Source of the DNA: Heliorestis convoluta
GTDB taxonomy: Bacteria; Bacillota; Desulfitobacteriia; Heliobacteriales; Heliobacteriaceae
Reading direction: 5' to 3'
DNA length: 64,000 bases
NCBI RefSeq assembly: GCF_009649955.1
Contig: NZ_CP045875.1
Span: forward strand, 1,283,501-1,347,500
Shown here piece after piece: positions 32,245-61,888 of this stretch (position 1 is the stretch's first letter; each line of letters opens with the position of its first letter). The position numbers were made by a program, and so were the translations under genes. The notes below the pieces were generated by a model, which saw only the letters and a program-made list of their open reading frames with translations, ran no database searches and had not been told where the DNA came from.

Positions 32245-32288
32245 AAACGCTATAATAGCTCTACCTATCCAGAACTATTATAGCGTTT
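32245..32288 (+). terminator. Terminator after the flagellinolysin gene
   Basis: Perfect 14-bp stem (32245-32258 with 32275-32288), A-run before and short T-rich tail after. Confidence 0.7.
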
Positions 32289-32351
32289 CTTAAGATTTTA
32301 TAATAATAAAGAGCTATAGAAATGAATTTACTTCGGCAAGGATGTGAATGA

Positions 32352-32666: not shown

Positions 32667-32860
32667 CTTTTTAGCATGACCAAAAACAACATTCAGCAAA
32701 TCCCCGACACCCACAACTCAACACAACGATGGGTCACTACATCAAGAAGCTGAAACCCTGTCTTTTTAAAATCTACATACGTAACCATAAGCATGCATGC
32801 AAATAATCCCTACCAATCCCCCTTCCTCGCCTCCTCCCCAACACCTCCAGGAGGTAAAAA

Positions 32861-34468: not shown

Positions 34469-34554
34469 GCTCGTATTCCTAACAACCAACAACCTTTTTC
34501 TCTAGCAAAATAGCCTACCATGCAAAACTAAAAAAAATCCAAAGGGGTGCAATC

Positions 34555-34782
34555 ATGTCTATCAAAAACTGCAAGCGCTGCTATAAAATCTTCGCAAGCA
34601 ACAGAAACGAACAAACACTGTGCCCCCAATGCAATCAAAAAGATAGTGAAGAATTCACCACCATACGCAATTACCTCTACAAATACCCCGGCGCATCCTT
34701 GATTGACATCGTTCATGGTACCGGCATATCAGAAGTTAAAGTAATTCGCTTCATTGAAGAAGGACGGCTATCAAGAAGTTAA
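34555..34782 (+). CDS. Short YvyF paralogue (N-terminal half only)
   Basis: The 75-residue product aligns with the first 75 residues of YvyF (20485). It has the zinc ribbon CKRC (6-9) with CPQC (23-26), the segment TTIRNYLYKYPGASLIDIVH and a final FIEEGRLSRS. The second Cys module and basic tail of YvyF are missing. AAAGGGG lies upstream of the ATG, and the downstream giant flagellin begins 21 nt after its stop, so they are co-transcribed. The retained half is probably the conserved functional unit of YvyF. This gene looks intact rather than degenerating. Confidence 0.8.
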   Translation: MSIKNCKRCYKIFASNRNEQTLCPQCNQKDSEEFTTIRNYLYKYPGASLIDIVHGTGISEVKVIRFIEEGRLSRS

Positions 34783-34803
34783 ATCGAAAGGACAAAGGTA
34801 AAA

Positions 34804-39376: not shown

Positions 39377-39411
39377 TTCACGGAGGGCTTACCTGTATCG
39401 TGTCACGAATT

Positions 39412-39439
39412 AAAGATCCTGCATAAGGGGTCTTTTTTC
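39412..39439 (+). terminator. Terminator-like direct repeat, copy 1
   Basis: A 28-bp sequence identical to 41653-41680. It contains AGATCC...GGGGTCT and six Ts. It lies just after the first AAA gene. Confidence 0.85.
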
Positions 39440-39500
39440 TATATATATAGGGTGCAAGCCAACAACCACAAGCATCTAGAAAAAAATCCCAAGATTAAAA

Positions 39501-39529
39501 TTGAAGAACAAAAGATAATCTGGTAAAAT
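39501..39529 (+). promoter_or_regulatory. Sigma-A-like promoter for the AAA/TOPRIM cassette
   Basis: TTGAAG (39501-39506), a 17-nt spacer and TAAAAT (39524-39529), 100 nt upstream of the AAA start. Confidence 0.5.
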
Positions 39530-39628
39530 TATCGTAAGAATAATCGATTGTAGTCGCATTACAAGGGTGGAAAGAACCTCGGAGCGTAGAAGAGATAGAT
39601 GATCAAAACTCTCAGGGGGAACAACAAT

Positions 39629-40891
39629 ATGATTTCAAAAATAAGCTTACGCAACTTCAAAAACTTCAAACAAGCCGACCTCGATATGGGCAAGGTAACT
39701 ACTCTGCTAGGAACGAACGCTTCTGGCAAAAGCAATATAAGAGATGCTTTTCGTTTTTTACACGGTCTCTCTAGAGGATATAACCTAGCTGAAATTCTAG
39801 GTCAAAAATGGGTAGATGGGATATTTCAGTGGAGTGGAATTCGCGGAGGAACTCGCGAAACAGCCTTTCTTAATAGTAAAACTTTTAGCTTATCTGCGCA
39901 CTTCGATTTAGAAGAAGAAAAAGAAAGGTTCAATATCAAATACACGATAGAAGTAGAGCCTTTATATGGTGATAATATACCACGAGTTATTTATGAGTCC
40001 CTTAGTTGCAATCAAGAAACCATCTATGAATCAACAGGAGAAAATTCTGCCGATGCCTTTCAACTGCCTGTTAAAGTAATAACTGGAGGAAGATATAGAA
40101 GAGGTCACAGGGAGAGCTGCGTATCCAATCAACCTGCTTTAACACAGTTGTTGAGCAAAATTAACCATAGGAGAGATACTAAGGGACTCTATGCACAGAA
40201 AGTAATTACAAAAACAATAGCAGCCTTAAAACAGATGCAGTTTTTTGATTTTAGCCCAGAAGCTATGAAAAAACCTTCCATACCAGGACAAACCACTTTA
40301 AGTGACCGAGGAGATAACTTATCTTCTGTGATGCAAGCAATATGCAAAGAAGAGATCCAAAAGAAAAAATTACTGGAATGGCTTAATGAATTAACACCCA
40401 TGGATGCTGTAGATTTTGAATTTCCCTTACAATTAGATGGAAAAACATTGATAACACTTGTAGAAAAGAATGGCAATAAAGTATCGGCTCATAGCGCTTC
40501 TGACGGTACTTTGCGTTTTTTAGCTATAATTACAGCTCTTTTTCAAAGCAATCAAGCAAAAATATACTTTTTTGAAGAAATTGAAAATGGGATTCATCCC
40601 ACTAGACTACAATTACTTCTCCAACTTATGGAAGGAGAGGCTCGGCATAGAAAGATTCAGCTTATAACAACAACTCATTCGCCTCAATTGTTACGTTTGC
40701 TAAGTAAAGATAGTTTAGACTATGCATCTCTTGTATACCGACTTCCTTATCAAAATCACGGGAAGATAAAAAAAATCAAAGATATTTTTGAGCAAGGTCT
40801 AGACTCAGATGAAAACCAAGATATTGCGAACCTAATGGAGTCTGGATGGCTTGAGGATGTTGTGTACTTCAATGATTCGGAGGAGAATTAG
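39629..40891 (+). CDS. AAA-15/21-type ATPase, first gene of a two-gene cassette
   Basis: The 420-residue protein opens MISKISLRNFKNFKQADLDM, with Walker A GTNASGKSN (28-36). It ends with the ABC-like features IYFFEEIENGIHPTRLQLLL (Walker B) and TTTHSPQLLRLLS (H-loop). This is the ATPase class found in OLD, RloA, AbiL and PARIS (AriA) systems. ATG 39629 is chosen (AGGGGG about 10 nt upstream) over 39599. Its stop directly abuts the next gene's ATG, so the pair is coupled. A phage-defence or stress function is the best inference. Confidence 0.8.
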   Translation: MISKISLRNFKNFKQADLDMGKVTTLLGTNASGKSNIRDAFRFLHGLSRGYNLAEILGQKWVDGIFQWSGIRGGTRETAFLNSKTFSLSAHFDLEEEKERFNIKYTIEVEPLYGDNIPRVIYESLSCNQETIYESTGENSADAFQLPVKVITGGRYRRGHRESCVSNQPALTQLLSKINHRRDTKGLYAQKVITKTIAALKQMQFFDFSPEAMKKPSIPGQTTLSDRGDNLSSVMQAICKEEIQKKKLLEWLNELTPMDAVDFEFPLQLDGKTLITLVEKNGNKVSAHSASDGTLRFLAIITALFQSNQAKIYFFEEIENGIHPTRLQLLLQLMEGEARHRKIQLITTTHSPQLLRLLSKDSLDYASLVYRLPYQNHGKIKKIKDIFEQGLDSDENQDIANLMESGWLEDVVYFNDSEEN

Positions 40892-45766: not shown

Positions 45767-45794
45767 TAAAGTTTTTCGCTCTTTCCTACGATAC
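45767..45794 (+). promoter_or_regulatory. Sigma-28 promoter of the 45835 gene
   Basis: TAAA (45767-45770), a 16-nt spacer and TACGATAC (45787-45794); very like the flgM promoter, including the GTTTTT after TAAA. Confidence 0.72.
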
Positions 45795-45834
45795 CTATAA
45801 CAAGTGAATTTTGCAGAGGAAAGGAGCTGGTTGT

Positions 45835-46500
45835 ATGTCAATTACAGCAAGTGGTATGGGTAGAACCGGTTATGACCCGATGCAACAATACAATCGCAAT
45901 CAAGCCAATCAAGGCAAAACTGAGGGTAAAGCACTAGTCAAAGAAAGAGCTGCGCAGGGAAAAGAAGGGACGCCTTCTGCCACGACAGAGACCAAAGCTC
46001 TTACTGATAAAGCTGACAAAGTAGAGTTAGGAGGGCAGGAGCTTTCATCGGTGACGTATAAGCCCGACTGGGGAGAGATTCAACGTCTGAAAGCGGCAAC
46101 AGAGCAGCGAATGGCGAAGCTGATCGAAACGGTTCGCCAACTGGTAGAAAGCCAGGGCATGCGCTTTATGGGGCTGGAAAAAGTGCAGTGGGACAAGATC
46201 GAAGTGCCTGATGAAGTGCGTGCGCAAGCGGCCGCCGACATTGCCGACGATGGTCCTTTTGGCGCTCCAAAAGTAGCCGATACGATCATTCAGTTTGCTG
46301 TAGCCATATCAGGGGGCGATCCGGAAAAAGTGCCTTTGCTACGGCGAGCGGTAGAAGGTGGATTCAACCAAGCCAAAAGGATGTTAGGCGAACTTCCAGA
46401 AGTATCGAAAAGGACGCATGCACTGATCATGGAAGCTTTTGACGAATGGGAAAAAACAGGGCAGGTTCCGCAGCGATCAGAGAACTTTAAGAAGCCATAG
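45835..46500 (+). CDS. Conserved hypothetical protein under sigma-28-type promoter
   Basis: A 221-residue protein of unknown function. Residues 1-80 are disordered (Gln/Asn/Thr-rich). The C-terminal domain (about 90-215) has VQWDKIEVPDEVRAQAAADI, DGPFGAPKVADTIIQFAVAI and SGGDPEKVPLLRRAVEGGFN, then MEAFDEWEK. I recall similar C-terminal domains in uncharacterised proteins of motile bacteria but cannot name the family. ATG 45835 has AAAGGAG upstream; the frame is open from 45811. Its own sigma-28 promoter and terminator (46532-46555) make it a monocistronic late-flagellar gene. Confidence 0.7.
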   Translation: MSITASGMGRTGYDPMQQYNRNQANQGKTEGKALVKERAAQGKEGTPSATTETKALTDKADKVELGGQELSSVTYKPDWGEIQRLKAATEQRMAKLIETVRQLVESQGMRFMGLEKVQWDKIEVPDEVRAQAAADIADDGPFGAPKVADTIIQFAVAISGGDPEKVPLLRRAVEGGFNQAKRMLGELPEVSKRTHALIMEAFDEWEKTGQVPQRSENFKKP

Positions 46501-46602: not shown

Positions 46603-49600
46603 ATGAGAATAGATATTTTTCAGCAAAAGGGACAAAGACAAGTATCTGGAGAAATCCCCGTAGAGTGGAAGTCCGGAGATGTTTATAAAGGAACGATTCG
46701 TGAAAGATTGTCATCTCATGAAGCGCTTGTACAAATTGGACAAAGAAATATCAAAGTACAATTTGATAGCCAGGTACCATCGCAAGAACGGGTTACCTTA
46801 GAAGTGCTTGATCAAAAAGGAGAAATTCCGCGCGTTCGAGCTGTCGCAGATTCAACGATGCAACAGCAAACTTCACAAGCTTCGACACAAAGTACGAATA
46901 TTCAAAGCGCAAGCCAAGGGCTTTTCGCTTCATCGGAAATGCGACAAGCAACCCAAATGCTTTTAGAACGAGGCATCCCTCTTACCAAGGACAACTTATC
47001 GGATCTGAAAGTATTCATTGAAAAAGGGCCTGATACGCTACAGAAACGGATGGAAACAGTGCAAACCATTGCGAATAAAGGCCTTGAAGTAACGCTGAAT
47101 CATTTGCGACCTGTCCACGCAGCTTTGCATGGACCTTCTTTTGGTTCTATTTTGCAAGAAACAGCCCAAGCGGTGGATCCGGAATTTAGTAACCGCTTGC
47201 AACAACTTGCTTCGGAGCGAATTGATCGAGAAAGAGCGCAAGTACAGCAGTCACAAACACAGTTACAACAAGCAGCAACGCGAGAAGCCTCTGCTCAAAA
47301 CAGAGAAGTAACAACACCAAGCAGAGAAACAACACAATCACAACAACCGCAGCAGAGCCGAGAGCAGAACGCCCAAAGTCGAGAAGCAATCACGCAAGCA
47401 AGAACAGAAGTACAAAGAGAAGCAAGCCTAGACAGAGCTTTGCAACAAGTAAGAGACCAAATCATCAACAACCCACGAGTTGACCGAGAAACAGCAACAA
47501 GAATCGAGCAAGCAAGCAACGAAAGCAGAGAACTCCAACAACAAGGCCGAGAAATAGCAGCAAGAGAAAGACTCACGCAAGCACTCGATCAAGCAGAAAG
47601 AGAACTAACGCGCCAAGAAACAACAGCAAGAGAAAGAACGCAAGCAACGCAACCCCAATCACAGCCACAGCAAACAGCAGCGCGAGAAATCTCTGCTCAG
47701 AACAGAGAAATAGCAACACCAAGCAGAGAAACCGCCCAACCTCAACAGCAAACAGCAACGCAAGAAGCCACTACTCAAAATAGAGAAGCAGCAACACAAA
47801 GCAGAGAAACAACACAATCCCAACAACCGCAGCAACAACCACAGAGCCGAGAGCAGATTGCCCAAAGCAGAGAGGCAATCACGCAAGCAAGAGCAGAAGT
47901 ACAAAGAGAAGCAAGCCTAGACAGAGCTTTGCAACAAGTAAGAGACCAAATCATCAACAACCCACGAGTTGACCGAGAAACAGCAACAAGAATCGAGCAA
48001 GCAAGCAATGAAAGCAGAGAACTCCAACAACAAGGCCGAGAAGTAGCAGCAAGAGAAAGACTCACGCAAGCACTCGATCAAGCAGAAAGAGAACTAACGC
48101 GCCAAGAAACAACAGCGAGAGAAAGAGCGCAAGGATCGCAGCCACAGCAAGTAGCAACGCGAGAAATCTCTGCTCAGAACAGAGAAATAGCAACACCAAG
48201 CAGAGAAACCGCCCCACCTCAACAGCAAACAGCAACGCAAGAAGCCTCAACTCAAAACAGAGAAGTACCAACACCAAGCAGAGAAACCGCCCAACCTCAA
48301 CAGCAAACAGCAACGCAAGAAGCCTCGACTCAAAACAGAGAAGTAACAACACAAAGCAGAGAAACAACACAATCACAACAAGCGCAGCAACAACCCCAGC
48401 AGAGCCGAGAGCAGATCGCGCAAAGCAGAGAAGCAATCACGCAAGCAAGAGCAGAAGTACAAAGAGAAGCAAGCCTAGACAGAGCCTTGCAACAAGTAAG
48501 AGACCAAATCATCAACAACCCACGAGTTGACCGAGAAACAGCAACAAGAATCGAGCAAGCAAGCAATGAAAGCAGAGAACTCCAACAACAAGGCCGAGAA
48601 GTAGCAGCAAGAGAAAGACTCACGCAAGCCCTGGACCAAGCAGAAAGAGAACTAACGCGCCAAGAAACAACAGCAAGAGAAAGAGCGCAAGGACCGCAAC
48701 CGCAACAAGCAGCAACGCGAGAAATCTCTGCTCAGAACAGAGAAATAGCAACACAAAGCAGAGAAGCAACGCAACCGCAATCACAGCCACAACAAACAGC
48801 AACGCAAGAAGCTTCTACTCAAAACAGAGAAGTAACAACACCAAGCAGAGAAACAACCCAATCACAACAACCGCAGCAACAACCACAGAGCCGAGAGCAG
48901 ATCGCCCAAAGTCGAGAAGCAATCACGCAAGCAAGAACAGAAGTACAAAGAGAAGCAAGCCTAGACAGAGCTCTACAACAAGTAAGAGACCAAGTCATCA
49001 ACAACCCACGAGTTGACCGAGAAACAGCAACAAGAATCGAGCAAGCAAGCAACGAAAGCCGAGAACTCCAACAACAAGGCCGAGAAGTAGCAGCAAGAGA
49101 AAGACTCACGCAAGCACTCGATCAAGCGGAAAGAGAATTAACGCGCCAAGAAGTAACAGCGAGAGAAAGAGCTCAAGGATCGCAACCACAGCAAATAGCA
49201 ACAAGAGAAGCAACTATCCAGAGTAGAGAAGCAGCCCAACCCCAACAACAAACAGCAACGCAAGAAGCCTCAACTCAAAACAGAGAAGTAACAACACCAA
49301 TCAGAGAAACAACACAATCACAACAAGCGCAGCAACAACCACAGAGCCGAGATCAGATCGCCCAAAGTCGAGAAGCAATCACGCAAGCAAGAGCAGAAGT
49401 ACAAAGAGAAGCAAGCCTAGACAGAGCTTTGCAACAAGTAAGAGACCAAGTCATCAACAACCCACGAGTTGACCGAGAAACAGCAACAAGAATCGAGCAA
49501 GCAAGCATCGAAAGCAGAGAACTCCAACAACAAGGCCGAGAAGTAGCAGCAAGAGAAAGACTCACGCAAGCCCTGGATCAAGCAGAAAGAGAACTAACGC

Positions 49601-52600
49601 GCCAAGAAACAACAGCAAGAGAAAGAACGCAAGCAACGCAACCGCAATCACAACCACAACAAACAGCAACGCGAGAAATCTCTGCTCAGAACAGAGAAAT
49701 AGCAACACCAAGCAGAGAAACCGCCCAACCGCAACAGCAAATAGCAACGCGAGAAGCCTCTACTCAAAACAGAGAAGCAGCAACACCAATCAGAGAAACA
49801 ACCCAATCACAACAACCACAGCAACAACCACAGAGCCGAGAGCAGATCGCGCAAAGTCGAGAAGTCATCACCCAAGCAAGAGCAGAAGTACAAAGAGAAG
49901 CAAGCCTAGACAGAGCTCTACAACAAGTAAGAGATCAAGTCATCAACAACCCGCGAGTTGACCGAGAAACAGCAACAAGAATCGAGCAAGCAAGCAACGA
50001 AAGCAGAGAACTCCAACAACAAGGCCGAGAAGTAGCAGCAAGAGAAAGACTCACGCAAGCACTCGATCAAGCGGAAAGAGAATTAACGCGCCAAGAAGTA
50101 ACAGCGAGAGAAAGAGCTCAAGGATCGCAACCGCAATCACAGCCACAACAAGCAGCAACGCGAGAAATCTCTGCTCAGAACAGAGAAATAGCAACACCAA
50201 GCAGAGAAGCAGCCCAACCGCAATCACAACAAACAGCAACGCAAGAAGCCTCAACTCAAAACAGAGAAGTAACAACACCAATCAGAGAAACAACACAATC
50301 ACAACAAGCGCAGCAACAACCCCAGCAGACCCGAGAGCAGATCGCCCAAAGTCGAGAAGCAATCACGCAAGCAAGAGCAGAAGTACAAAGAGAAGCAAGC
50401 CCAGACAGAGCCTTGCAACAAGTAAGAGACCAAGTCATCAACAACCCACGAGTTGACCGAGAAACAGCAACAAGAATCGAGCAAGCAAGCAACGAAAGCA
50501 GAGAACTACAACAACAAGGCCGAGAAGTAGCAGCAAGAGAAAGACTCACGCAAGCCCTCGATCAAGCAGAAAGAGAACTAACGCGCCAAGAAACAACAGC
50601 AAGAGAAAGAACGCAAGCAACGCAACCGCAATCACAGCCACAACAAGCACAGCAACAACCACAGAGCCGCGAACAAATCACCCAAAGCCGCGAAACAACA
50701 ACCCAAGCAAGAACAGAAGCACAAAGAGAACCAAGCCTGGACAGAGCCATACAACAAATAAAAGACCAAGCAACCAACAACCCAAGAGCAAACGAAATTA
50801 CCAACAAAATCGACCAAGCCATCAACGAAGCTCGCAACAGAATCAACCAATCCATAGAACGAGCCGAAAAAGAACTACTCCAAAAAGAAAAAACAACCCC
50901 CAAAAGAACCGAGCCCACACAGCCGCAACCACCCCGAGAACAAATCACCCAATCCCGACAAATCCTAACCGAGACAAGAAACGCAATCCAACAACAACCA
51001 AGCATAGACAGAACCCTGCAACAAGTCCGCGACCAGATCATCAACAACCTAAGAGTCGATCGACCAACCGCCGAAAGAATCGAAACCGCTCTGTACCAGG
51101 CCCAAGCTAGAATCACAGAAGCCATCACACAAGCCGAAAGAGAACTAGCTCGCCAAGAAACTCCAACACAACTAAGCCAAAACAGAGAACCCCATGCTCA
51201 AACAAGAGAACAAATCAGCCAATCCCGACAAATCCTCACCGAGACAAGAAACGCAATCCAACAACAACCAAGCCTAGACAGAGCCCTACAACAAGTCCGT
51301 GACCAGATCATCAACAACCCCAAAGTCGATCAAACAACAGCCGACAAAATCGAGCGAGCCACCAACGAAGCGCACCAATACCAACAACAAGGACGCGAAA
51401 TCGTAGCCCGCTACGTACTTACCCAGGCCATCGACCAAACCAACAAAGAATTATCACAACAACAACCCATCGCCAGAGAACGAAGCCAAACAACGACACA
51501 GCCCCAACCCACCCAACAAAGAGAACCAATTACACAAAATAGAGCCCCCCTCCCTCAAACGCAAGAACAAATCAACCAGAGCCGACAAGCCTTACATCAA
51601 GTAAAAAATGATCTTCACCGCGAGAACAACCTAGAGCGAGCCATCCAACAAGTACAAGATCGAGTCATCAACAACCCCAGAGTCGATCAAACAACAGCCG
51701 ACAAAATCGAGCGAGCCCTTAACGAAACCCGCCAATACCAGCAACAAGGCCGCGAAGTCGTAGCCCGTTACAAACTCAGCCTAGCCCTCGATCAAGCCGA
51801 AAAAGACTTGGCCCGCCAAAGTCAAGACACAACCACCAGAGAACGAAACCAAAGCACACAACCACAACCAAGCCAAAGCAGAGAACCCCTTCCCACAAAC
51901 ACACAAAACAGGCATAACGCTCAACCCATCCAACCTTCCACACAAACTACACAAAGCATCACTCCAACCAGCAACAACACGCAACCAACACCAACAGAAC
52001 GCCCCCAAACCCAAAATCAACCCCAACCCGAACCCCGCCCACAGCAACAACCTCAACCAACACAACCAACCTCGAACCAAGAAAAACTCACCCAAGCCAT
52101 TGAACAATCCAACAAAGACCTAACCCCACAAGAAACAGAAACTAAAGACCCAACCCAACAAAAAGCACAATCACAACAAAATATCCAACCCCAACAAAAC
52201 ACCCAACCTCGCGAACCCCAGCCCCCCAACCTCATCCAAGAAACAGCCAACCAAGAATACCAATTCAACCAAGAAACCCTAGCCGCCCTCAAGCTCACCT
52301 CCAAAGACATCGTCGTCACCGAAATCACCCAGCGACTCAACGAAGCAGCCATCCACTTCCGAGACACAAAGCGAGAAATCAACCGCAACATCGACAAAAT
52401 CACCCAACTCGCCCAATCGACCCGCATGAACATCTACCCCCACGTAAAACAAGCGCTCCAATCGGCCATCGACCTCCTCGATCGAGCCATCCTCAAAAGC
52501 GACATCACCCTCTTCACAGACATGAAAATGGAAAAACAACTCATGCAAGCCAGTACAGATCTGGCCGAAGCCCGCAAACACCTCGAAAAAGGTGATAATG

Positions 52601-53553
52601 CCAAAGCCGTCGAAATCCTCAACAACGTCAAAAAAATGCTCGAAAAGATGAACTTCCGCCCCGCCGAAGTAAAAATCCAACACATCCTTACCAAAGAAAG
52701 CCTACTAGACAGACCTGCCGAACCGCGATATCATCAAATATCACAACAGCTCGTAAACGTCGCTAAAATGCTACAAAGCCCAGAACCATCAGCTCGCAAC
52801 ACCTTCGAAGCCCTTCGCGCCCTCGGACTAAACTACGACAGCGAAGTGGCCCAAAATATCTCCAACACATCCAACAAATCAACACCCACCACCAATAGCA
52901 ACAGCAACCCCAACAACCTCACAAACACCAACCAATCCAACACCCCCCATAATCCCAACAACCCTAACAACCCCCAGTCCGAACAAGAAAGACTCCAACA
53001 AAACATGAAATCCATCCTTATGCAACTCACCCGAGGCGAAGGAACCACAGGCCGACAAGAAGGCCCCATGGATCAAGCGCTCCTTAACCTCACAGGCCAA
53101 CAACTGCTCAGCAAATTCGAAGGCCACAGCAACCTACAAACCATGCTCTTCGACATCCCCCTCTTACTCGGAGACAAACTAGAAAGCGTCAAAATCTACG
53201 TCAACTCCCACAAAAACGGCCAAAAAATCGACTGGGAAAACTGCAACATCTACTTCCTCATCGAAACAGGCAAAATGGGCGACACCGGCATCCTCCTCAC
53301 CGCCACCGACCGCAACCTCTCCATCACCCTCAAAAACGACAGCCCCGACTTTGTCCAAAAAGCCGAACCCATCATCGAAAAAAGAAAAGAACACCTCGAA
53401 GCAATCGGCTATAGCGTCGCCAACCTAAAGCTAACCCACCTCACCGACGATAAAGAAAAAGAAGCACCCCCCCAAGAACAAGAACCCAAAGCAACAACAT
53501 CGCCTTTGCGAGCCTACCAGAACAGTGTCAGGGGGTACGACTACAAAATATGA
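46603..53553 (+). CDS. Giant FliK/YlqG-like hook-length control protein
   Basis: A 2316-residue protein with recognisable ends. The N-terminal 80 residues form a small beta domain (WKSGDVYKGTIRERLSSHEA, LVQIGQRNIKVQF), then a helical module (QATQMLLERGIPLTKDN ... LRPVHAALHG). Residues about 226-1746 are eleven repeats, extremely rich in Gln, Arg, Glu, Thr and Ala. From about 1877 comes a helical domain, and the C-terminus (about 2150-2316: LLNLTGQQLLSKFEGHSNLQ ... IDWENCNIYFLIETG) is like the FliK hook domain. The FlhB-C-like gene follows with an ATGA overlap, as in B. subtilis ylqG-ylqH. FliK proteins are normally 400-600 residues. A molecular-ruler role is inferred. Confidence 0.75.
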   Translation: MRIDIFQQKGQRQVSGEIPVEWKSGDVYKGTIRERLSSHEALVQIGQRNIKVQFDSQVPSQERVTLEVLDQKGEIPRVRAVADSTMQQQTSQASTQSTNIQSASQGLFASSEMRQATQMLLERGIPLTKDNLSDLKVFIEKGPDTLQKRMETVQTIANKGLEVTLNHLRPVHAALHGPSFGSILQETAQAVDPEFSNRLQQLASERIDRERAQVQQSQTQLQQAATREASAQNREVTTPSRETTQSQQPQQSREQNAQSREAITQARTEVQREASLDRALQQVRDQIINNPRVDRETATRIEQASNESRELQQQGREIAARERLTQALDQAERELTRQETTARERTQATQPQSQPQQTAAREISAQNREIATPSRETAQPQQQTATQEATTQNREAATQSRETTQSQQPQQQPQSREQIAQSREAITQARAEVQREASLDRALQQVRDQIINNPRVDRETATRIEQASNESRELQQQGREVAARERLTQALDQAERELTRQETTARERAQGSQPQQVATREISAQNREIATPSRETAPPQQQTATQEASTQNREVPTPSRETAQPQQQTATQEASTQNREVTTQSRETTQSQQAQQQPQQSREQIAQSREAITQARAEVQREASLDRALQQVRDQIINNPRVDRETATRIEQASNESRELQQQGREVAARERLTQALDQAERELTRQETTARERAQGPQPQQAATREISAQNREIATQSREATQPQSQPQQTATQEASTQNREVTTPSRETTQSQQPQQQPQSREQIAQSREAITQARTEVQREASLDRALQQVRDQVINNPRVDRETATRIEQASNESRELQQQGREVAARERLTQALDQAERELTRQEVTARERAQGSQPQQIATREATIQSREAAQPQQQTATQEASTQNREVTTPIRETTQSQQAQQQPQSRDQIAQSREAITQARAEVQREASLDRALQQVRDQVINNPRVDRETATRIEQASIESRELQQQGREVAARERLTQALDQAERELTRQETTARERTQATQPQSQPQQTATREISAQNREIATPSRETAQPQQQIATREASTQNREAATPIRETTQSQQPQQQPQSREQIAQSREVITQARAEVQREASLDRALQQVRDQVINNPRVDRETATRIEQASNESRELQQQGREVAARERLTQALDQAERELTRQEVTARERAQGSQPQSQPQQAATREISAQNREIATPSREAAQPQSQQTATQEASTQNREVTTPIRETTQSQQAQQQPQQTREQIAQSREAITQARAEVQREASPDRALQQVRDQVINNPRVDRETATRIEQASNESRELQQQGREVAARERLTQALDQAERELTRQETTARERTQATQPQSQPQQAQQQPQSREQITQSRETTTQARTEAQREPSLDRAIQQIKDQATNNPRANEITNKIDQAINEARNRINQSIERAEKELLQKEKTTPKRTEPTQPQPPREQITQSRQILTETRNAIQQQPSIDRTLQQVRDQIINNLRVDRPTAERIETALYQAQARITEAITQAERELARQETPTQLSQNREPHAQTREQISQSRQILTETRNAIQQQPSLDRALQQVRDQIINNPKVDQTTADKIERATNEAHQYQQQGREIVARYVLTQAIDQTNKELSQQQPIARERSQTTTQPQPTQQREPITQNRAPLPQTQEQINQSRQALHQVKNDLHRENNLERAIQQVQDRVINNPRVDQTTADKIERALNETRQYQQQGREVVARYKLSLALDQAEKDLARQSQDTTTRERNQSTQPQPSQSREPLPTNTQNRHNAQPIQPSTQTTQSITPTSNNTQPTPTERPQTQNQPQPEPRPQQQPQPTQPTSNQEKLTQAIEQSNKDLTPQETETKDPTQQKAQSQQNIQPQQNTQPREPQPPNLIQETANQEYQFNQETLAALKLTSKDIVVTEITQRLNEAAIHFRDTKREINRNIDKITQLAQSTRMNIYPHVKQALQSAIDLLDRAILKSDITLFTDMKMEKQLMQASTDLAEARKHLEKGDNAKAVEILNNVKKMLEKMNFRPAEVKIQHILTKESLLDRPAEPRYHQISQQLVNVAKMLQSPEPSARNTFEALRALGLNYDSEVAQNISNTSNKSTPTTNSNSNPNNLTNTNQSNTPHNPNNPNNPQSEQERLQQNMKSILMQLTRGEGTTGRQEGPMDQALLNLTGQQLLSKFEGHSNLQTMLFDIPLLLGDKLESVKIYVNSHKNGQKIDWENCNIYFLIETGKMGDTGILLTATDRNLSITLKNDSPDFVQKAEPIIEKRKEHLEAIGYSVANLKLTHLTDDKEKEAPPQEQEPKATTSPLRAYQNSVRGYDYKI
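47281..51840 (+). repeat. Eleven-copy tandem repeat inside the FliK-like gene
   Basis: Seven near-identical units of 455-560 bp have their LDRALQQVRDQ core at 47431, 47919, 48478, 48964, 49419, 49909 and 50404. Four diverged shorter units follow (about 50740, 51007, 51278, 51632). Each encodes a helical segment REQIAQSREAITQARAEVQR ... RELQQQGREVAARERLTQAL plus a Gln-rich spacer of variable length. Confidence 0.9.
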
Positions 53554-53846
53554 ATTACAAATGGATTAACCAAAAAAAGAAAAAAGACCACGCCAGCCCA
53601 TCAGCCGCTGCCATCAGCTACGATGACAGCAAAGACCAAGCACCCAAAATCATCGCCCAAGGCAAAGGCCAACTGGCTGCCAAAATCATCGAAATGGCCA
53701 AAGAAAAAAACATCCCCGTTCAAGAAGACGCTCTCCTCGTCGAAAACCTTATCGACATGGACCTCGGAGAAAACATCCCCCCCCAACTCTACCTGGTCAT
53801 CGCTGAAATCCTACTTATGCTAGAAGAAATGGAAAAAAAGGTCTAA
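53550..53846 (+). CDS. ylqH: FlhB C-terminal-like protein (YlqH/FlhX type), copy 1
   Basis: The 98-residue protein equals the cytoplasmic export-switch domain of FlhB/YscU. It has AAAISYDDSKDQAPKIIAQG (the strand after the cleavage site), LAAKIIEMAKEKNIPVQEDA and IPPQLYLVIAEILLMLEEM. The NPTH autocleavage motif is absent, as in free-standing FlhX proteins. Its ATG overlaps the FliK-like stop (ATGA), so the two proteins are made together and probably interact at the export gate. A close second copy is at 56274. A terminator follows. Confidence 0.88.
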   Translation: MNYKWINQKKKKDHASPSAAAISYDDSKDQAPKIIAQGKGQLAAKIIEMAKEKNIPVQEDALLVENLIDMDLGENIPPQLYLVIAEILLMLEEMEKKV

Positions 53847-53936: not shown

Positions 53937-53964
53937 TAAAGTATTTCACCTCTTTCTTCGATAA
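53937..53964 (+). promoter_or_regulatory. Sigma-28 promoter of the second FliK-like gene
   Basis: TAAA (53937-53940), a 16-nt spacer and TTCGATAA (53957-53964), 78 nt before the ATG and right after the terminator. Confidence 0.72.
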
Positions 53965-54041: not shown

Positions 54042-56277
54042 ATGAAAATAGACAGCTATGTAAATCAAAAAAAACAACTTGGCGAACAGCCTCTCGATAT
54101 AAAACCAAGCGAAACCCCTAAAGGAACAAGCAAAGAAGGCCTGTCCACGAGCGAACAACGCCCCGCAACAACGCCTACGCAAAACGAAGCCCTTCTCTCA
54201 ACCAAAGAAATGAAACAAGCCACCCAAACGCTCCTTCAACGAGGCGTCCCCCTCACCAAAGAAAACCTCCAAGACCTCAAAGCCTTTCTAGAAAAAGAAC
54301 CAGGCACAATCCAAGAAAAAATGGCCACCATCCAATCGCTAGCCAACAAAAAGCTAGACGTTACCACAACCAACCTTCGCCCCGTCCATGAAGCACTTCA
54401 CGGTCAACCCGTAGGCCAACTTCTCCATAACCTCACAGCAACAGCTACAGCAGACCCAGAAATCCTCAACAAAATACAAGAAACAATCCCACGAAGCGAC
54501 CAGACACCCCAAGCACCCCAAGCAGCCCAAACAGTCCAGACAGATCAACGCACCGGCAGCCTCATCGAACAAACAGCCAACCAAGAATACAGACTCAACC
54601 ACGAAACCGTAGCCGCCTTAAAACTTCCCACCAAAGACATCGTCGTCTCCGAAATCACAGCACGCCTCAACGACGCCGCCAACCAATTCCGCGATCTCAA
54701 GCGCGAAATCAACCGCAACCTCGACAACATCATCCGCGTCGTCCAACCGACCCGAGCCAACGTCCACCAACAAGTCAGCCAGGCCTTAGAATCAGCCATC
54801 GACCGCCTCGATCGCGCCATCTTAAAAAGCGACATCACCCTCTACAGCGACATGAAAATGGAAAAACAACTCATGAAAGCCAGCACCGACCTCGCCGAAG
54901 CCCGCCAACACCTAGCCAACGGCAACAATGCCAAAGCCGTAGAAATATTCAACCAAGTCAAAGCAATGCTCGATAAGATGAACTTTCGCCCCGCCGAAAT
55001 CAAAGTACACCACATGCTCACCAAAGACCCTTTTCTCCAACAAAACCAACCGCCTCGCATCGAAACGCAACCCCAACCACCTATGCACCAACAATCACAA
55101 AACCAACTGCAAACAGCACAACAACCACACCAAGCCCAACCACAGCCTCCGTCACAGCCACAAGGGCAATCGCAACTACATACACAACCCCCAAGCCAAC
55201 ATCAACTACAACCACAACCACACCAACAGCCCCATACAGACACAACCACACCTACATCCCCCAACCGCCCCGAACCCTCAGCACGACAAACCTTCGAACT
55301 CATCCGCGCCCTAGGCCTTAACCACGATAGCGAAGTTGCCCAAAGACTCGTCGCCCTCCCCCAAAACAACAAACAAAACCAGACCTACAACCAAAGCCAA
55401 CTCCAATACCTGCGCCAAAACGCCCAAAACCCAACAACAAACCCCACCACCACAAACTCCATCCCAACCTCTATCTTCCTTCAACCCCTCCTATCCCAAC
55501 GAATCCCCATCCCTGCCATCCCAACAGCACCTCCAACTCAACCAGCAGCGCCAACACCCGCAGCCCCTTTAACCACCCCCCAACAGACACATCAACACCA
55601 CAAACGTCAACAACACAAGCTCAAACCCCACCACCCCCAACCACGCCAACATCAACAACACAAACGGCAACACCACTCGCAACAGCCCTAGCCCCCGACC
55701 TCCCACCAGAGCAAAACCTAAAAATCCACCCTCCTCCAACTCCTCCGCGCCACCAACACCGCCGCCCCCCGAACCGACGAGTGCGTCTCTGACCCTATCA
55801 TGGAACAACTCCTCCTCAACCTCACCGGACAACAACTTCTCAGCAAGCACGAATCCAACCCCAACCTCCAATCCTTCTACTTCAACCTCCCCCTACCGTC
55901 GGAGAAAGCTAGAAACCGTCAAAATCCACGTCAACGCCCGCAAAAAAGGTCAAAAAATCGACTGGGAAAACTGCAACATCTACTTCCTCCTAGAAACCAA
56001 AAGCCTCGGCGAGACAGGCATCCTCATCAACAGCACCGAACGCAACCTCTCCATCACCATCAAAAACGACAACCCCAACTTCACCAACCGAGCCACCCCA
56101 ACCGTTGCCAAATACAAAAAACATCTGGAATCAATCGGCTACAACGTCATAGGCGTAAAGTTTTCTAAGCTAAATCCCGATAAAGAAAAAGAGACACCCC
56201 AGCCAGCACCACCAGAACCACAACAGAACAAAGCACCCAAACCCAACCAAGGCAGGGGGTACGACTTTAAAATATGA
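54042..56277 (+). pseudogene. Second FliK/YlqG-like gene, broken by three frameshifts
   Basis: A paralogue of the 46603 gene without the N-terminal beta domain and without the long repeats. Shared parts are the helical module (MKQATQTLLQRGVPLTKENL ... LRPVHEALHG), the TANQEYRLNHETVAALKLPT domain and the hook-like C-terminus (LLNLTGQQLLSKHESNPNLQ; IDWENCNIYFLLETKSLGET). Frame 1 stops at 55691. Reading continues only if one base is restored in a C-run near 55580, one is removed near 55730 and one near 55908, ending at TGA 56275-56277. Two of the three sites are C-rich runs, so sequencing error is possible; otherwise it is a decaying copy. Confidence 0.82.
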
Positions 56278-56564
56278 CCTACCAATACCTCAACGGGAAA
56301 AAGAAAAAAAAGCTCGCCCGACCGAGTGTCGTCCTACTTCGCTACGAAGAAGGCAACGACACTCCCACCGTGAGCGCCCAAGGCACAGGCCATATAGCAC
56401 AGCAAATCATGAACCTAGCCAAAGCAAACAACATACCCATAGAACAAAACAGTCAACTTCTAGATAACCTCCTCGACATGGACTTCGGAGACCAAGTACC
56501 GCCCCAATTCTACCAAGTCCTCGCCGAGACCCTGCTGATGCTCAAAGAAATGGAAAAAAATTGA
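56274..56564 (+). CDS. FlhB C-terminal-like protein (YlqH/FlhX type), copy 2
   Basis: A 96-residue paralogue of the 53550 protein: SVVLLRYEEGNDTPTVSAQG, IAQQIMNLAKANNIPIEQNS, DMDFGDQVPPQFYQVLAETL. It lacks NPTH too. Its ATG overlaps the TGA of the frameshifted FliK-like gene in the same ATGA arrangement, showing that the whole two-gene module was duplicated. It looks intact even though its partner does not. GGAGG after its stop serves the next gene, the second fliS, 15 nt downstream. Confidence 0.87.
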   Translation: MTYQYLNGKKKKKLARPSVVLLRYEEGNDTPTVSAQGTGHIAQQIMNLAKANNIPIEQNSQLLDNLLDMDFGDQVPPQFYQVLAETLLMLKEMEKN

Positions 56565-56579: not shown

Positions 56580-57005
56580 GTGACCCAACAACTCACAGAA
56601 GCAGAACTACTCAAAAAAACCCCCCAAGAACTGACCAGCCTTTTATACCAATCAGCTCTCACCAAACTAGAAAAAGCCATGGAAGCCATCGACGAAAAAA
56701 ACTACATAGAAGCCAACACCCTACTTCAAAAGTGCAACGACATCCTGCACAGACTCGGCGGCGGCCTTAACTACGAAGCCGGTCCCTTAGCCGAACAACT
56801 TGAAGACATCTACAACTACATGGCCGAAAAACTAATCCAAGCCAACCTGAAAAAGAACAAAGCTGACATCGAAGAAGTACACCGCCTCCTCACAACCATC
56901 GCCCAAGCCTGGGAAGAAACAATCAACAAAGGTCCCAGCGCCAAAAGCGTACAGATGAGAGCCAAAGCAACAGCCTACGAACGCAACCTTTTCTACGAAG
57001 ATTAA
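56580..57005 (+). CDS. Second FliS-like flagellin chaperone
   Basis: A 141-residue FliS homologue of normal length without the Pro-rich extension seen at 43991. Conserved features: PQELTSLLYQSALTKLEKAM, EANTLLQKCNDILHRLGGGL, EDIYNYMAEKLIQANLKKNK, LTTIAQAWEETI. GTG start with GGAGG upstream. It lies directly before the flagellin pair at 57139 and 58292, whereas the first FliS lies after fliD. A dedicated chaperone for that second flagellin lineage is a reasonable inference. Confidence 0.87.
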   Translation: MTQQLTEAELLKKTPQELTSLLYQSALTKLEKAMEAIDEKNYIEANTLLQKCNDILHRLGGGLNYEAGPLAEQLEDIYNYMAEKLIQANLKKNKADIEEVHRLLTTIAQAWEETINKGPSAKSVQMRAKATAYERNLFYED

Positions 57006-57138
57006 CATAAGCCCCTATCGCCCAAGACAGACGCCATCAATCGTCCCTGTCCCATCAGTCCCTTAAGTTCCATAGTCCCGCAACGAGGCTCCGACAGCAT
57101 CAAGCAAGACAGCAGAGTTGAAGGGAGAACACAGACTG

Positions 57139-58059
57139 ATGAGAATCAACAACAACGTACAAGCACTGAACGCCTATCGCAATTTGTCGAATAACCAACA
57201 AGCCATATCAACGCACCTTCAAAGACTATCTTCAGGTCTGCGCATCAACAGTGCCTCCGACGATGCCGCCGGCCTAGCCATATCAGAAAAAATGCGATCC
57301 CAGATCCGAGGGCTCGCCGCTGCCGAACGCAACACCCTAGACGGCATCTCCCTTATCCAAACAGCCGAAGGCGCCCTCGACTCGGTCCACCAAATGCTCC
57401 AAAGAATGCGCGAACTGGCCGTACAAGCCGCCAACGGCACCTACGCTGAAATAGACCGTGAAGCCATTCAAGAAGAAGTAAACCAACTTCTCTCTGAAAT
57501 CAACCGTATTGGCAACACCACCGAATTCAACACGCGCAATCTCTTAGACGGATCCATGGGAGAAGATGGAGAAATACTAATACTACAAATCGGCGCCAAC
57601 GAAGGCCAAGCCATGGGAATTAACATAGAAGACAGCCGTGCAAGAGCCTTAGGTCTTACTCTCCCTGCCGATAACGATGGAGATGCCGATGGAAGCTTCT
57701 ACAATAGCATGGCAACCGTCACCAACGTCTTAAGTGATGAAGTAGAATACGAAAGAGCCCTAGACTTTACAAATTTTGAAAATGCCGCCAACGCCATCAC
57801 TGCAATCGACAACGCCATCAACAAAATCTCAACAGAAAGATCCAAGCTAGGCGCCATCCAAAACCGACTCGAATACACCGCAACGAACTTACAAGTCTTC
57901 ACCGAAAACATTACCGCCTCCGAATCCCGCATCCGCGACGCCGACATGGCCTTAGAAATGAGCAGCCTAACCAAAAACAACATCATAACCCAAGCCGCCA
58001 CGGCCATGCTCGCCCAAGCCAACCAATTGCCCCAAGGCGTATTACAATTGTTGCAGTAA
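57139..58059 (+). CDS. Flagellin, compact type
   Basis: A 306-residue filament subunit, the smallest here. N-terminus MRINNNVQALNAYRNLSNNQ, SSGLRINSASDDAAGLAISE; C-terminus ESRIRDADMALEMSSLTKNN, AQANQLPQGVLQLLQ. Only about 80 residues separate the conserved ends, so it lacks a true D2/D3. The terminal sequences (RGLAAAE, QLPQGVLQLLQ) pair it with the giant flagellin at 58292 rather than with the 29-38 kb group. ATG 57139 with AAGGGAG about 11 nt upstream; the frame is open from 57118. Followed by a very strong terminator. Confidence 0.94.
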   Translation: MRINNNVQALNAYRNLSNNQQAISTHLQRLSSGLRINSASDDAAGLAISEKMRSQIRGLAAAERNTLDGISLIQTAEGALDSVHQMLQRMRELAVQAANGTYAEIDREAIQEEVNQLLSEINRIGNTTEFNTRNLLDGSMGEDGEILILQIGANEGQAMGINIEDSRARALGLTLPADNDGDADGSFYNSMATVTNVLSDEVEYERALDFTNFENAANAITAIDNAINKISTERSKLGAIQNRLEYTATNLQVFTENITASESRIRDADMALEMSSLTKNNIITQAATAMLAQANQLPQGVLQLLQ

Positions 58060-58095
58060 ATCAAAAAATATACGATAAAAATTAAAAAATAAAGC

Positions 58096-58147
58096 ATGCA
58101 AAAGAAGAAGCACTAGACTGTTAAGTCTAGTGCTTCTTCTTTTGCAT
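58096..58147 (+). terminator. Perfect 23-bp terminator hairpin
   Basis: 58096-58118 pairs perfectly with 58125-58147 around a 6-nt loop; T-rich 3' arm. Confidence 0.9.
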
Positions 58148-58197
58148 ATTTAAATAGAAAAACAAACCAATTCATTAAAAATTAAAGACAAAGCCAC

Positions 58198-58224
58198 TAA
58201 TTCAATATTGAAAAACAACGATAA
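58198..58224 (+). promoter_or_regulatory. Possible sigma-28 promoter of the giant flagellin
   Basis: TAAT (58198-58201), a 15-nt spacer and AACGATAA (58217-58224). Weaker than the other four: one mismatch in the -35 and two in the -10. Confidence 0.4.
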
Positions 58225-58291
58225 AAAATATAGATGATACTTCATAACCCCAACAAAAACTAACAAAACCTTTTAAGGAGTGGAATCATAT

Positions 58292-61200
58292 ATGCGTATT
58301 AACCATAATATTCAAGCGTTAAACGCTTATCGTCAATTAACGCAAAATCAAACGACTATATCCAAACATTTAGAAAAACTATCGTCGGGCTTACGCATCA
58401 ACCGCGCTGCGGATGATGCTGCAGGGTTGGCTATTTCGGAGAAAATGCGTTCGCAGATTCGAGGGTTGGCTGCAGCGGAGAAAGGTACGCTAGATAGTAT
58501 TTCTTTGATTCAGACGGCGGAAGGTGCACTTGATAGTATTCACAGTATGTTGCAACGGATGCGGGAGCTCGCTGTGCAAGCGGCCAATGATACTTATACC
58601 GAAGATGATAAAGCGGCGATTCAAGAAGAAATCAATCAGCTTACTTCTGAAATTAACCGGATTGCGGAGACAACGGAGTTTAACAAGCGGAATTTGCTGA
58701 ATGGTGGCGTAGCGATTACTGGTGGCAAAGGCATCGCCGACCCAGATGCTATTGCATATGGAACAGGAATGTCCAACTTAACAATCGATAGTAATTCTAA
58801 GCTAGACGCAGGCAACTATCGAATTGACGTAACCAGTGAAGTCACAAATCTTGTTTCCAACGGACAATCTATTCAAGGGAACATTGGAAACCCTTCTGTA
58901 ACCCAACAGGCAACAGTATTGGGAGAAGGTAGCTACAAAGTCGAAATTGCTTATGGTGCGGTAAAAACACTTGACGGTGCCCCAGTTGATGGTAACAACC
59001 TTTTAGGTGGAACTTCCCCGATTGCTATCCAAAGTACATCCACATTGAAAGATCAAGAGCACAATATTGATGTAACCAAACAAACTGTAGTTTCAGCAAC
59101 AGAAGTTAATAGAGCTGGTATCAGCAATGTAGATGGCTCACAAGCAGCGGCAGGTACGTACAGTATTCAAACTTCAGTGGTACTAAATTCAGGAGCGATT
59201 ACTAGTGCTGGTGGAGCCGAACAAATCATAGATGCAACTTCAGGAGCCATATCTAATCTCTCTATAGCACAAGATTCTGCTTACTTGCATACTGAAGATT
59301 ACACAATTGATGTAGTACAGTTGGGCTCAGCAGGAGCTCTAATGACCGCTGCCGAAGAATTGAGCAGTCCAGCAGAAGAAAATGCTAAAGTAACAGCTAC
59401 AAGCGCTTTGAGTGGTCCTTCAGTAAACTTACAAAATTTAACCTTAAAAATTAATGGTACTACATTTACGTTAGGTGATGGTCGTGCTGTACACGCATTA
59501 GGTACCGTTGATTTAACTGACTATAATGACAGAATAGATCTTCGTGATGCTTTGCAATCCGATTTAGATTATACTTTTGGTTCAAATAAGTTCAAAGTAG
59601 GTCTTGATAATGATTGGAAGCTAACAATTGAAGGTATAGCTGATAATGATGTTGTTATAGGTGCTGCAGCGGGCAATACAGCACTTGGCTTTGCTGGAAC
59701 CGAATTTTCTACCTATACTTCCCCGACTACAGATTTAAAGAGCTTAGTAGACTTTAAACTCAATGACAAGGTAATAACACTAACAAATGTTAAAGCTTTA
59801 GGTGAGGTTAACCTTTCTGAAGCAGCAGGCAGAGCAGCAGTTAAAGCAGCATTACAAGCCGATATCAACGCTGTTTTTACAGGTGAAGCAGATACGCACG
59901 ATGGTGCGACTTTTACAGTAGGTCTTGATGGTGGCAGATTAACAATCCAAAATAATGACAGAGCACTTGGTAAAGAAGTTATAATAGAAAATACGACCGG
60001 CAATGATATTAGTCTACTTGGTTTTACGACAAATAATCTAGGTGATGCAAATAAAGCTGAAACAACATACAGCACTTTAAACAACGTGGAACTAAGATTC
60101 GACTTAAGAAAAAATGTAGAAAAAATTGAATCATCCTCTGCTACTTTTACCAACAACGCAGGCTCCACCGCAATTAAACTAGGTGACATTAGTTTCAACG
60201 TCAATAACAAAGCTGTGTATTTAAGCGATTCGATTCCTACTAATGATACGAGTAAGAGCACTTACCACGGTAACACTATTACATTTGGCACAAATTCCAT
60301 ACAATACCAAGTAGAAGTAAAACAAAACGGCGCCGATGCTCAGGTTGTGACAGTGAATCAAAATCATAACGATTTACAGACAGTAACATTTGCCGATGCC
60401 AGCAAATTCTCTTTTCATATTAAAGGTGACTCATTCTTAGGTGATGAGCCCCTTCACTCTGTTGTCACATCTGTCGATAACTACAGTGTAAAGTTATATG
60501 AATCTGGCACAGGTACAATAAACCATACCACAACAGAGCTAGCTGTAGCAGGGATAAAAGAAGGTGTAGACACCTATACCATCACCAATGATTTTTCCGC
60601 AGGCCAAACGATAACCATAGCCGGCAAAACATTCACAGCGGTAAATGGTACTGCCGATGCTGCCAAAGGACAGTTTTCTGTTGATGGGAATATCCAGGAC
60701 ACAAGAACCAGTTTACTATTGGCACTAAACCACACTAATGGTTTTGATGGAAAATTCACAGCAGCGGTAGGTACTGAAGATAATGTCTTCACTCTAACCG
60801 AAGTCGGTACAAATGGCAAAAATGCAGGTGGGGCTACAATCGCAGGAGGAACAGCAGTCGGAGACGCCTACACATTCACAGGAACAGCTGCAGTAAATGA
60901 TCTAAAACACATTGCATTAGGCACTGGAGGAACAGGCCTATTTGTAACACTAGATCGTGATAACGTATTTGCGTTAGAAAATGGTGCTGTAAGTTCAATT
61001 AAGTTTGAAGTAAATACTGCTGAAGAATATTCTGCTCAAGTGTTAACAGCTGGTGGTGGTGTAGTCCAAAATTCTGGCCGATTCACATTAGACAGCAATA
61101 ATGCTAGTGATGCTAAGTCGATTGAGTTAGGCAATGGTGTTGAATTTAATTATGTCTATGCAGACCTCGCTGAAGCAGGAAACCTGTTCTTCTCTGTAGG

Positions 61201-61888
61201 TAAGGGCGAAGAAGTATTTAACATGAAACTCTTTAGCACAGATGATGTCGAAAAACAAATTGGTGCAGAGACATTCAACAAAGGTGATAAAGTTTCTTTT
61301 GCTAATCACGGACTAAGCATTGATACACACTTTGTGGATACTACATCTGGCCAAAGCACAACCTTTGAAGTTGAAGATACTACGGTCAATAAATCTCTCT
61401 CTATGCAAATAGGTGCTAATCAAGGGCAAAGTTTCTCTGTAGATATAAACAAAATGACTTCTAAAGCATTAAAAATCAGTAGCGATGCTTCGAGCGGTGA
61501 TCCTGGTGTTCCAGGCGCTGCCTTTACAGAAATAGCAGGCGTCACAGCTGGAATAGCTGGTAAAGAAAATACCAAAACAGAGTATGCTCTAGACGTATCC
61601 GATCACACCAAAGCCGCTGCAGCCATCACCGTTATCGACAATGCCATCAGAGATGTATCTCTAGAACGCTCCAAACTCGGCGCCTTCCAAAACCGCCTAG
61701 AATACACCGTAACCAACCTAAAAACCTTCAACGAAAACCTAACTGCCTCCGAATCCCGCATCCGCGACGCCGACATGGCCCTAGAAATGACCAACTTCAG
61801 CAAAAACAACATCATCAACCAAGCCGCCACCGCCATGCTCGCCCAAGCCAACCAACTTCCTCAAGGTGTACTACAACTTCTACAATAG
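58292..61888 (+). CDS. Giant flagellin (1198 residues) with long adhesin-like insert
   Basis: A filament subunit with canonical ends: [41 protein letters not shown]-terminus ERSKLGAFQNRLEYTVTNLK, AQANQLPQGVLQLLQ. The insert (about 145-1030) is Thr/Gly/Asn/Asp-rich and beta-patterned. It includes short repeated strands (YRIDVTSEV, HNIDVTKQ, DYTIDVVQ) and two homologous modules of about 100 residues encoded near 59430-59720 and 59730-60070, each with INGTTFTL/LNDKVITL and FKVGLDNDWKLTI/FTVGLDGGRLTI lines. No protease motif. ATG 58292 with AAGGAG 12 nt upstream, or GTG 58280. Lacks Cys. One of the longer flagellins one would expect to see. Confidence 0.92.
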   Translation: MRINHNIQALNAYRQLTQNQTTISKHLEKLSSGLRINRAADDAAGLAISEKMRSQIRGLAAAEKGTLDSISLIQTAEGALDSIHSMLQRMRELAVQAANDTYTEDDKAAIQEEINQLTSEINRIAETTEFNKRNLLNGGVAITGGKGIADPDAIAYGTGMSNLTIDSNSKLDAGNYRIDVTSEVTNLVSNGQSIQGNIGNPSVTQQATVLGEGSYKVEIAYGAVKTLDGAPVDGNNLLGGTSPIAIQSTSTLKDQEHNIDVTKQTVVSATEVNRAGISNVDGSQAAAGTYSIQTSVVLNSGAITSAGGAEQIIDATSGAISNLSIAQDSAYLHTEDYTIDVVQLGSAGALMTAAEELSSPAEENAKVTATSALSGPSVNLQNLTLKINGTTFTLGDGRAVHALGTVDLTDYNDRIDLRDALQSDLDYTFGSNKFKVGLDNDWKLTIEGIADNDVVIGAAAGNTALGFAGTEFSTYTSPTTDLKSLVDFKLNDKVITLTNVKALGEVNLSEAAGRAAVKAALQADINAVFTGEADTHDGATFTVGLDGGRLTIQNNDRALGKEVIIENTTGNDISLLGFTTNNLGDANKAETTYSTLNNVELRFDLRKNVEKIESSSATFTNNAGSTAIKLGDISFNVNNKAVYLSDSIPTNDTSKSTYHGNTITFGTNSIQYQVEVKQNGADAQVVTVNQNHNDLQTVTFADASKFSFHIKGDSFLGDEPLHSVVTSVDNYSVKLYESGTGTINHTTTELAVAGIKEGVDTYTITNDFSAGQTITIAGKTFTAVNGTADAAKGQFSVDGNIQDTRTSLLLALNHTNGFDGKFTAAVGTEDNVFTLTEVGTNGKNAGGATIAGGTAVGDAYTFTGTAAVNDLKHIALGTGGTGLFVTLDRDNVFALENGAVSSIKFEVNTAEEYSAQVLTAGGGVVQNSGRFTLDSNNASDAKSIELGNGVEFNYVYADLAEAGNLFFSVGKGEEVFNMKLFSTDDVEKQIGAETFNKGDKVSFANHGLSIDTHFVDTTSGQSTTFEVEDTTVNKSLSMQIGANQGQSFSVDINKMTSKALKISSDASSGDPGVPGAAFTEIAGVTAGIAGKENTKTEYALDVSDHTKAAAAITVIDNAIRDVSLERSKLGAFQNRLEYTVTNLKTFNENLTASESRIRDADMALEMTNFSKNNIINQAATAMLAQANQLPQGVLQLLQ

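Follow-up and report, generated by a model that had tools for sequence, protein, structure and literature searches.

How a type III export ruler couples length, or time, to a switch in export is still debated, and one locus of Heliorestis convoluta HH, a photosynthetic soda-lake bacterium, poses this question through a ruler-like protein of giant size. The window analyzed here, a 64,000-nucleotide stretch (1283501–1347500) of contig NZ_CP045875.1, carries on its forward strand, at 46603..53553, a single open reading frame of 2316 codons with an ATG start and zero internal stops. A preliminary description had read the product as a FliK-like protein whose repeats expand a hook ruler. Is this giant indeed FliK-like, and if so, does it measure hooks or serve another step of flagellar export? 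We designate the family "FliK3", a name coined in the present analysis, and the giant itself FliK3a.

Eleven beads in one reading frame

A direct-repeat search of the frame recovered a 300-nt block seven times, each copy 92–94% identical to the first, with start-to-start spacings of 489, 558, 486, 456, 489, and 495 nt, each divisible by three, and with further diverged copies 3′ of the seven; TRF reported a period of 489 bp (score 3502). The periods given in the preliminary description (488, 559, 486, 455, 490, and 495) were each within 1 base of these spacings. A profile built from the units identified exactly 11 full copies, confirming the earlier count of seven near-identical and four diverged repeats, along with a weak partial 12th match at residues 1820–1847. 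On the forward strand, the seven near-identical units lie at residues 259–342 (47377..47628), 422–505 (47866..48117), 608–691 (48424..48675), 770–853 (48910..49161), 922–1005 (49366..49617), 1085–1168 (49855..50106), and 1250–1333 (50350..50601), and are joined by Q/T-rich linkers of 68–102 residues. The diverged units 8 to 11 follow at residues 1362–1432 (50686..50898), 1451–1522 (50953..51168), 1541–1623 (51223..51471), and 1660–1743 (51580..51831), units 8 and 9 being shortened. Overall, the repeat region measures 1485 residues, close to the roughly 1500 first proposed, with 20% Q and zero Cys, Trp, or Phe; growth in ruler length by near-identical repeats is thus supported at the level of sequence.

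Unit 1 was modelled by AlphaFold2 as four helices (residues 250–341, pLDDT mostly >90), and we refer to the repeat unit, predicted to be an 84-residue four-helix bundle, as a bead. Across the seven near-identical units, pooled pN was 0.016 and pS 0.133 (the pairs are not independent), and pairwise dS ranged from 0.035 to 0.344, indicating that the protein sequence of the unit was kept while synonymous changes built up, i.e., that these beads are under purifying selection. The genome was assembled with Velvet from 454 GS20 (14×) and Illumina GAIIx (35×) reads (PMC7143216), and the bead copy number should therefore be read as a short-read-assembly figure.

Domain architecture and family identity

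Beyond the beads, four further domains were delineated in FliK3a, all on the forward strand. From an input of 28 aligned N-terminal parts, AlphaFold2 predicted a small beta-barrel at residues 27–81 (46681..46845), for which Foldseek returned OB/S1-type folds with weak scores, and a helical domain at residues 104–231 (46912..47295), conserved among FliK3 proteins and separated from the first bead by a disordered stretch. The core model (mean pLDDT 63) comprised a helical middle domain, conserved and placed at residues 1900–2030 (52300..52692), and a beta-rich C-terminal domain with one long helix, a predicted FliK/YscP-type switch domain at residues 2169–2284 (53107..53454), the remainder being largely disordered. 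Compared with solved structures, the top-ranked Foldseek match of the core model was the switch domain of PscP (probability 1.00, TM 0.56 of the target, E 0.045). In VIA-align, the middle domain yielded generic helical-bundle matches only, the FliK fold being absent from that list, and the FliK3 sequence profile gave no match below E 0.15 against the PDB.

Family searches placed the protein indirectly. FliK3a had zero family matches in Pfam and NCBIfam, and neither the whole protein nor its core alone matched Flg_hook (PF02120) at E ≤ 0.01; at the same threshold, 11 of 38 FliK3 core sequences did match (best 1.7e-7). In profile comparisons, the FliK3 C-terminal domain matched a YlqG-type FliK-like profile at 99.3% (E 1.8e-20, 146 columns), this YlqG-type profile in turn matched canonical FliK at 96.2%, and the FliK3 profile matched canonical FliK directly at 30% only. 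Judged from these comparisons, the giant is FliK-like and nearest to the YlqG branch. The initial FliK-like reading is supported by the YlqG-type profile, by PscP as best structural match, and by the next gene, which encodes an FlhB C-terminal domain.

The last 441 residues of FliK3a were conserved in 6/9 genomes of its family (counting E < 1e-40) and, in a named genome collection, at 38 loci, whose hosts range from Bacillales to a Peptostreptococcaceae MAG. At E ≤ 1e-50, the full core had matches in 5/398 genomes of an evenly drawn sample of the phylum and in 26/299 genomes of an equivalent sample of the class of Lederbergia.

A conserved cassette with a detached FlhB domain

FliK3 heads a conserved set comprising FliK3, FlhX3, FliS, flagellin, and DUF327. 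Across the 38 loci, which were found without using neighbor genes, FlhX3 lay downstream of FliK3 in all 38 and overlapped it in 31, FliS and flagellin were present in 36, and DUF327 in 35. DUF327 alone was missing at L090, L096, and L099, but these loci end near there. FliS and flagellin were absent at L100 and L105, and the cassette was also incomplete at L140, L149, and L150; at L100, L105, and L149, FliK3, FlhX3, and DUF327 were retained without a cassette flagellin. Among 20 further loci, picked partly for long FliK3 and including two (L152 and L153) from genomes already represented by L072 and L069, FlhX3 was found at 19, FliS at 17, flagellin at 18, and DUF327 at 9. At the Ammoniphilus resinae locus (L072 8723–11460), an FlhX3-like gene lies on each side of FliK3. 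The cassette of Heliobacteriaceae genome G005 includes a 237-aa protein (L061 13470–14183) with about nine tandem "LLERQDKLEQGQA" repeats.

In the window, the neighbors of the giant are fliD, fliS, and flagellins. FlhX3a (98 aa, 53550..53846, +) starts within the end of FliK3a (ATGA) and matched Bac_export_2 at positions 262–334 only (E 4.7e-17). Aligned with FlhB of the same genome, FlhX3 begins to match only after NPTH and has neither this motif nor the membrane part, and by this alignment it is the FlhB C-terminal domain as a separate protein. Further downstream on the same strand are a FliS-type flagellin chaperone (56580..57005, TIGR00208), the cassette flagellin of 313 aa (57118..58059, Pfam), and a second, very large flagellin of 1202 aa (58280..61888, Pfam and NCBIfam), and DUF327 is found elsewhere in the genome, not near the cassette. 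Two ATPase-like genes at 38402–40891, between a flagellin and flaG, have partial similarity to retron and MADS defense ATPases, well under curated cut-offs.

FliK3 and FlhX3 were duplicated together within the window (FliK3b-FlhX3b, 54042–56564). FliK3b (54042..56277, +) is a tandem paralogue of FliK3a, to which it was sister in the middle-domain tree (support 98/90), and is without beads and beta-barrel. Its frame is broken by an in-frame stop at 55689–55691 and a frame change near 55900. Since its C-terminal domain has stayed well conserved and the genome includes 454 reads, both recent decay and sequencing error are possible causes of this break. It is followed by FlhX3b (96 aa, 56274..56564, +), a second detached FlhB C-terminal domain according to its alignment and its Bac_export_2 match (E 3e-12).

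Candidate late-type promoters before some FliK3 genes

We next evaluated candidate promoters with a sigma-D consensus that we take to be TAAA-N14..16-GCCGATA. The sample was 54 FliK3 upstream regions, obtained after seven duplicate, truncated, or broken loci were excluded, two loci were swapped for longer ones, and upstreams <250 bases were dropped. A sigma-D-like site with ≤1 mismatch preceded 13 of these 54 genes and was lacking before 41, compared to a mean of 0.8 and a maximum of 3 genes over 20 rounds of dinucleotide shuffling (an earlier count under other limits gave 17/53). By the same test, sites were found before 30/49 cassette fliS genes, 17/85 flagellin-type genes, 1/52 FlhX3 genes, and 0/40 DUF327 genes. 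When 20 scrambled motifs were used instead, one with an intact −10 box scored 10/54 and the other 19 scored 0 to 4.

Directly before FliK3a, no sigma-D-like site was detected, the best candidate having 3 mismatches. Candidates with 2 mismatches lie on the forward strand before FliK3b (53937..53963) and upstream (45767..45793) of the 229-aa ORF that precedes FliK3a (45811–46500, no Pfam match), and the latter may serve as a promoter for the giant. Given the promoters of its relatives and this possible read-through, we infer late expression of FliK3a.

The giant is probably not the hook ruler

The proposed role in hook length was not supported. H. convoluta has an ordinary FliK of about 530 aa located ~1.8 kb from its one hook-type gene, with an ORF 3′ of this FliK that we read by eye as FlgD; the giant is not among the hook genes, where its place is taken by this other FliK. 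A separate FliK above the Pfam cut-off was likewise present in 9/9 genomes of the search among relatives and in 8/8 Bacillales genomes with FliK3, and in the genomes examined, canonical FliK had frames of 333–594 codons. A second flagellar system with its own hook was also considered and ruled out, as three hook/rod D1 proteins, read as FlgE plus two rod proteins, were found in 24/25 genomes, and two in the incomplete G003. A hook-length ruler giving unusually long or adjustable hooks would be in keeping with the FliK-like switch domain and the long repeat region, and insertions in Salmonella FliK are described as lengthening hooks (PMC6972891). However, because the genome has its own FliK beside the hook gene, FliK3 is grouped with FliS and flagellin instead of hook genes, and relatives carry late-type promoters, the giant is probably not the hook ruler, and we consider such a role very unlikely.

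Bead number and length vary across relatives

Using the bead profile in --max mode on a set of about 44 proteins, and accepting E values down to 0.01, we obtained at least one match in FliK3 of 31/38 loci, usually one and several of them weak. Within the Heliobacteriaceae, bead number was 11 in the window, 5 in Heliobacterium mobile, 3 in G005, and 1 in Heliorestis acidaminivorans, and no bead was detected with the unit profile in Heliophilum fasciatum (G004). Bead copy number thus differs between species, and the sequences suggest that a domain present once in most relatives gave rise to the beads by tandem duplication in frame.

FliK3 length was 612–854 aa in the untruncated loci among the 38, except for H. 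mobile (1309 aa); the G005 protein has 1428 aa, FliK3 elsewhere reaches up to 1936 aa, and 7 of the 26 strong matches in the class sample had open frames >1000 codons. The FliK3 of L135 (1885 aa) displayed ten matches to the same bead as the giant. Six other loci (L136–L141) carry tandem units of their own, with 4, 3, 8, 4, 1, and 2 matches, respectively; no profile match linked these units to the bead (1.8%), and they were kept separate for this reason. Long FliK3s occupied separate places on the middle-domain tree, some of whose branches are long or weakly supported, indicating from the sequences that FliK3 was lengthened repeatedly.

About 11 flagellin-type matches were counted in the H. 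convoluta genome (12 to Flagellin_C, one of which is weak and FlgL-like), with flagellins at window positions 29114–38268 and 57118–61888, and two of its flagellins exceed 1150 aa. That bead number tracks flagellin number (11 versus about 11 here) was ruled out by G714, with about 10 bead matches and about 2 flagellins, and by G004, with no bead and about 5 flagellins. In this survey, in which FlgL rows were assigned from weak scores and length, genomes whose cassette holds a flagellin had at least one more elsewhere (G003 being incomplete), and G067 and G717, whose cassettes are without FliS and flagellin, apparently have a single flagellin each. Such a distribution agrees with a cassette organized around additional flagellins, and yet, because of these last two genomes, the function must extend beyond licensing a second flagellin.

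A candidate late switch in export specificity

The C-terminal domain of Salmonella FliK, itself a ruler, is described as acting on FlhB (PMC6972891), and FliK as removing, i.e., ejecting, the cleaved FlhB C-terminal domain (PMC13344023). Since FlhX3 corresponds to this very domain as a separate protein, our proposal is a further lock and key that operates late: the giant would be an expanded FliK3 that switches the secretion specificity of the flagellar export apparatus at a late stage, with its own FlhX3 as the lock. Specifically, FlhX3 would occupy or mimic the seat that belongs to the cleaved C-terminal domain of FlhB, FliK3 would be exported once the hook is finished, and its C-terminal domain would then act on FlhX3, changing the export substrates of the gate and probably licensing the cassette flagellin. 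The eleven beads would either lengthen the ruler or, unfolding one after another, slow its export, making the switch later or more certain. As a helix, the repeat region would span about 220 nm, and in fully extended form about 550 nm; a hook, at about 55 nm, is far shorter. Export, binding, and timing are all inferred from sequence here, and we hold this reading tentatively, with a little under an even chance of being right.

A more specific form of the late switch would make it a second measured checkpoint in the flagellum of these Bacillota. Once the hook is complete and FliK has removed the cleaved C-terminal domain of FlhB, FlhX3 would refill the empty seat, reloading it as a lock; late-expressed FliK3 would then reach through the hook into the beginning of the filament and eject FlhX3, so that at a fixed distance export would turn to a different flagellin or class of substrates. 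This distance would be tuned by the bead number, grown independently in several lineages. Spatially ordered flagellins are described in Shewanella putrefaciens (PMC6299084). We regard this elaboration as doubtful, with a small chance of being correct.

Other explanations would assign the beads a different meaning. They may form a kinetic timer instead of a ruler, each having to unfold before export, a delay that would allow the C-terminal domain to act irrespective of how long the structure is. The confident four-helix prediction for unit 1 is consistent with this, and in Salmonella, mutations that make FliK export slower cause the switch to flip even when there is no hook, and it has been proposed that export pauses at a folded segment of FliK (PMC13344023); a pure brake, however, would not need long linkers, and those between units 1–7 are long as well. 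We consider a timer rather unlikely while granting it an appreciable chance. Comparable weight goes to an accessory role resembling that of YlqG and YlqH, in which FliK3 and FlhX3, as a spare pair or a regulatory one, would modulate FlhB, e.g., by restraining export, without any measuring and with beads as a near-neutral expansion. Under this explanation, the persistence of FliK3, FlhX3, and DUF327 without a cassette flagellin at three loci and the wide variation of bead number among close relatives (0 to 11) would be expected, whereas purifying selection on the repeated beads and a bead match kept at most loci argue against it. Finally, the copy number itself may be an assembly artefact, the true array holding more or fewer beads, given short reads, Velvet, and units this similar. 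We think this unlikely, as the units differ at many synonymous sites, linker lengths differ, the frame is open throughout, and relatives carry arrays too.

Relation to known systems and significance

Like FliK (PF02120), FliK3 combines an N-terminal part and an extended middle with a predicted C-terminal switch domain broadly similar to that of FliK, and its putative partner is an FlhB C-terminal domain. Unlike FliK, it lies outside the hook operon and has its own FlhX3 instead of, or beside, FlhB, and the giant differs further by its repeated beads and its 2316 aa, compared to 333–594 codons. The closest profile to FliK3 is that of YlqG-type proteins, named after the YlqG/YlqH pair of Bacillus subtilis, and a pair of this type is found in the H. 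convoluta genome (L002). There, too, a FliK-like protein is followed by an FlhB-C-like gene, but this protein has about 490 aa, is not associated with flagellin, and YlqG-type matches are confined to the C-terminal part of the FliK3 query, leaving out its middle domain. The YscP/PscP needle rulers of injectisomes, which include the best match of the C-terminal model, have the ruler plus switch-domain design predicted for FliK3, whereas FliK3 belongs to a flagellar gene set. FlhX3 resembles Helicobacter FlhX (HP1575), a "spare part" that is also a stand-alone FlhB C-terminal domain, and differs in being paired with a dedicated FliK-like protein, fliS, and flagellin. Searches of open-licence papers listed none whose title or opening abstract lines describe the FliK3-FlhX3-FliS-flagellin-DUF327 set.

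FliK3 proteins are a naturally occurring set of ruler-like homologs whose detected beads number between zero and eleven, and each lies beside a detached domain of the FlhB type, i.e., of the domain thought to be the target of such rulers. The conserved set also ties DUF327 to flagellar export. If the late switch proposed here is real, flagellar export would pass through two or more programmed transitions, and where a species has several flagellins, their order would be under dedicated control.
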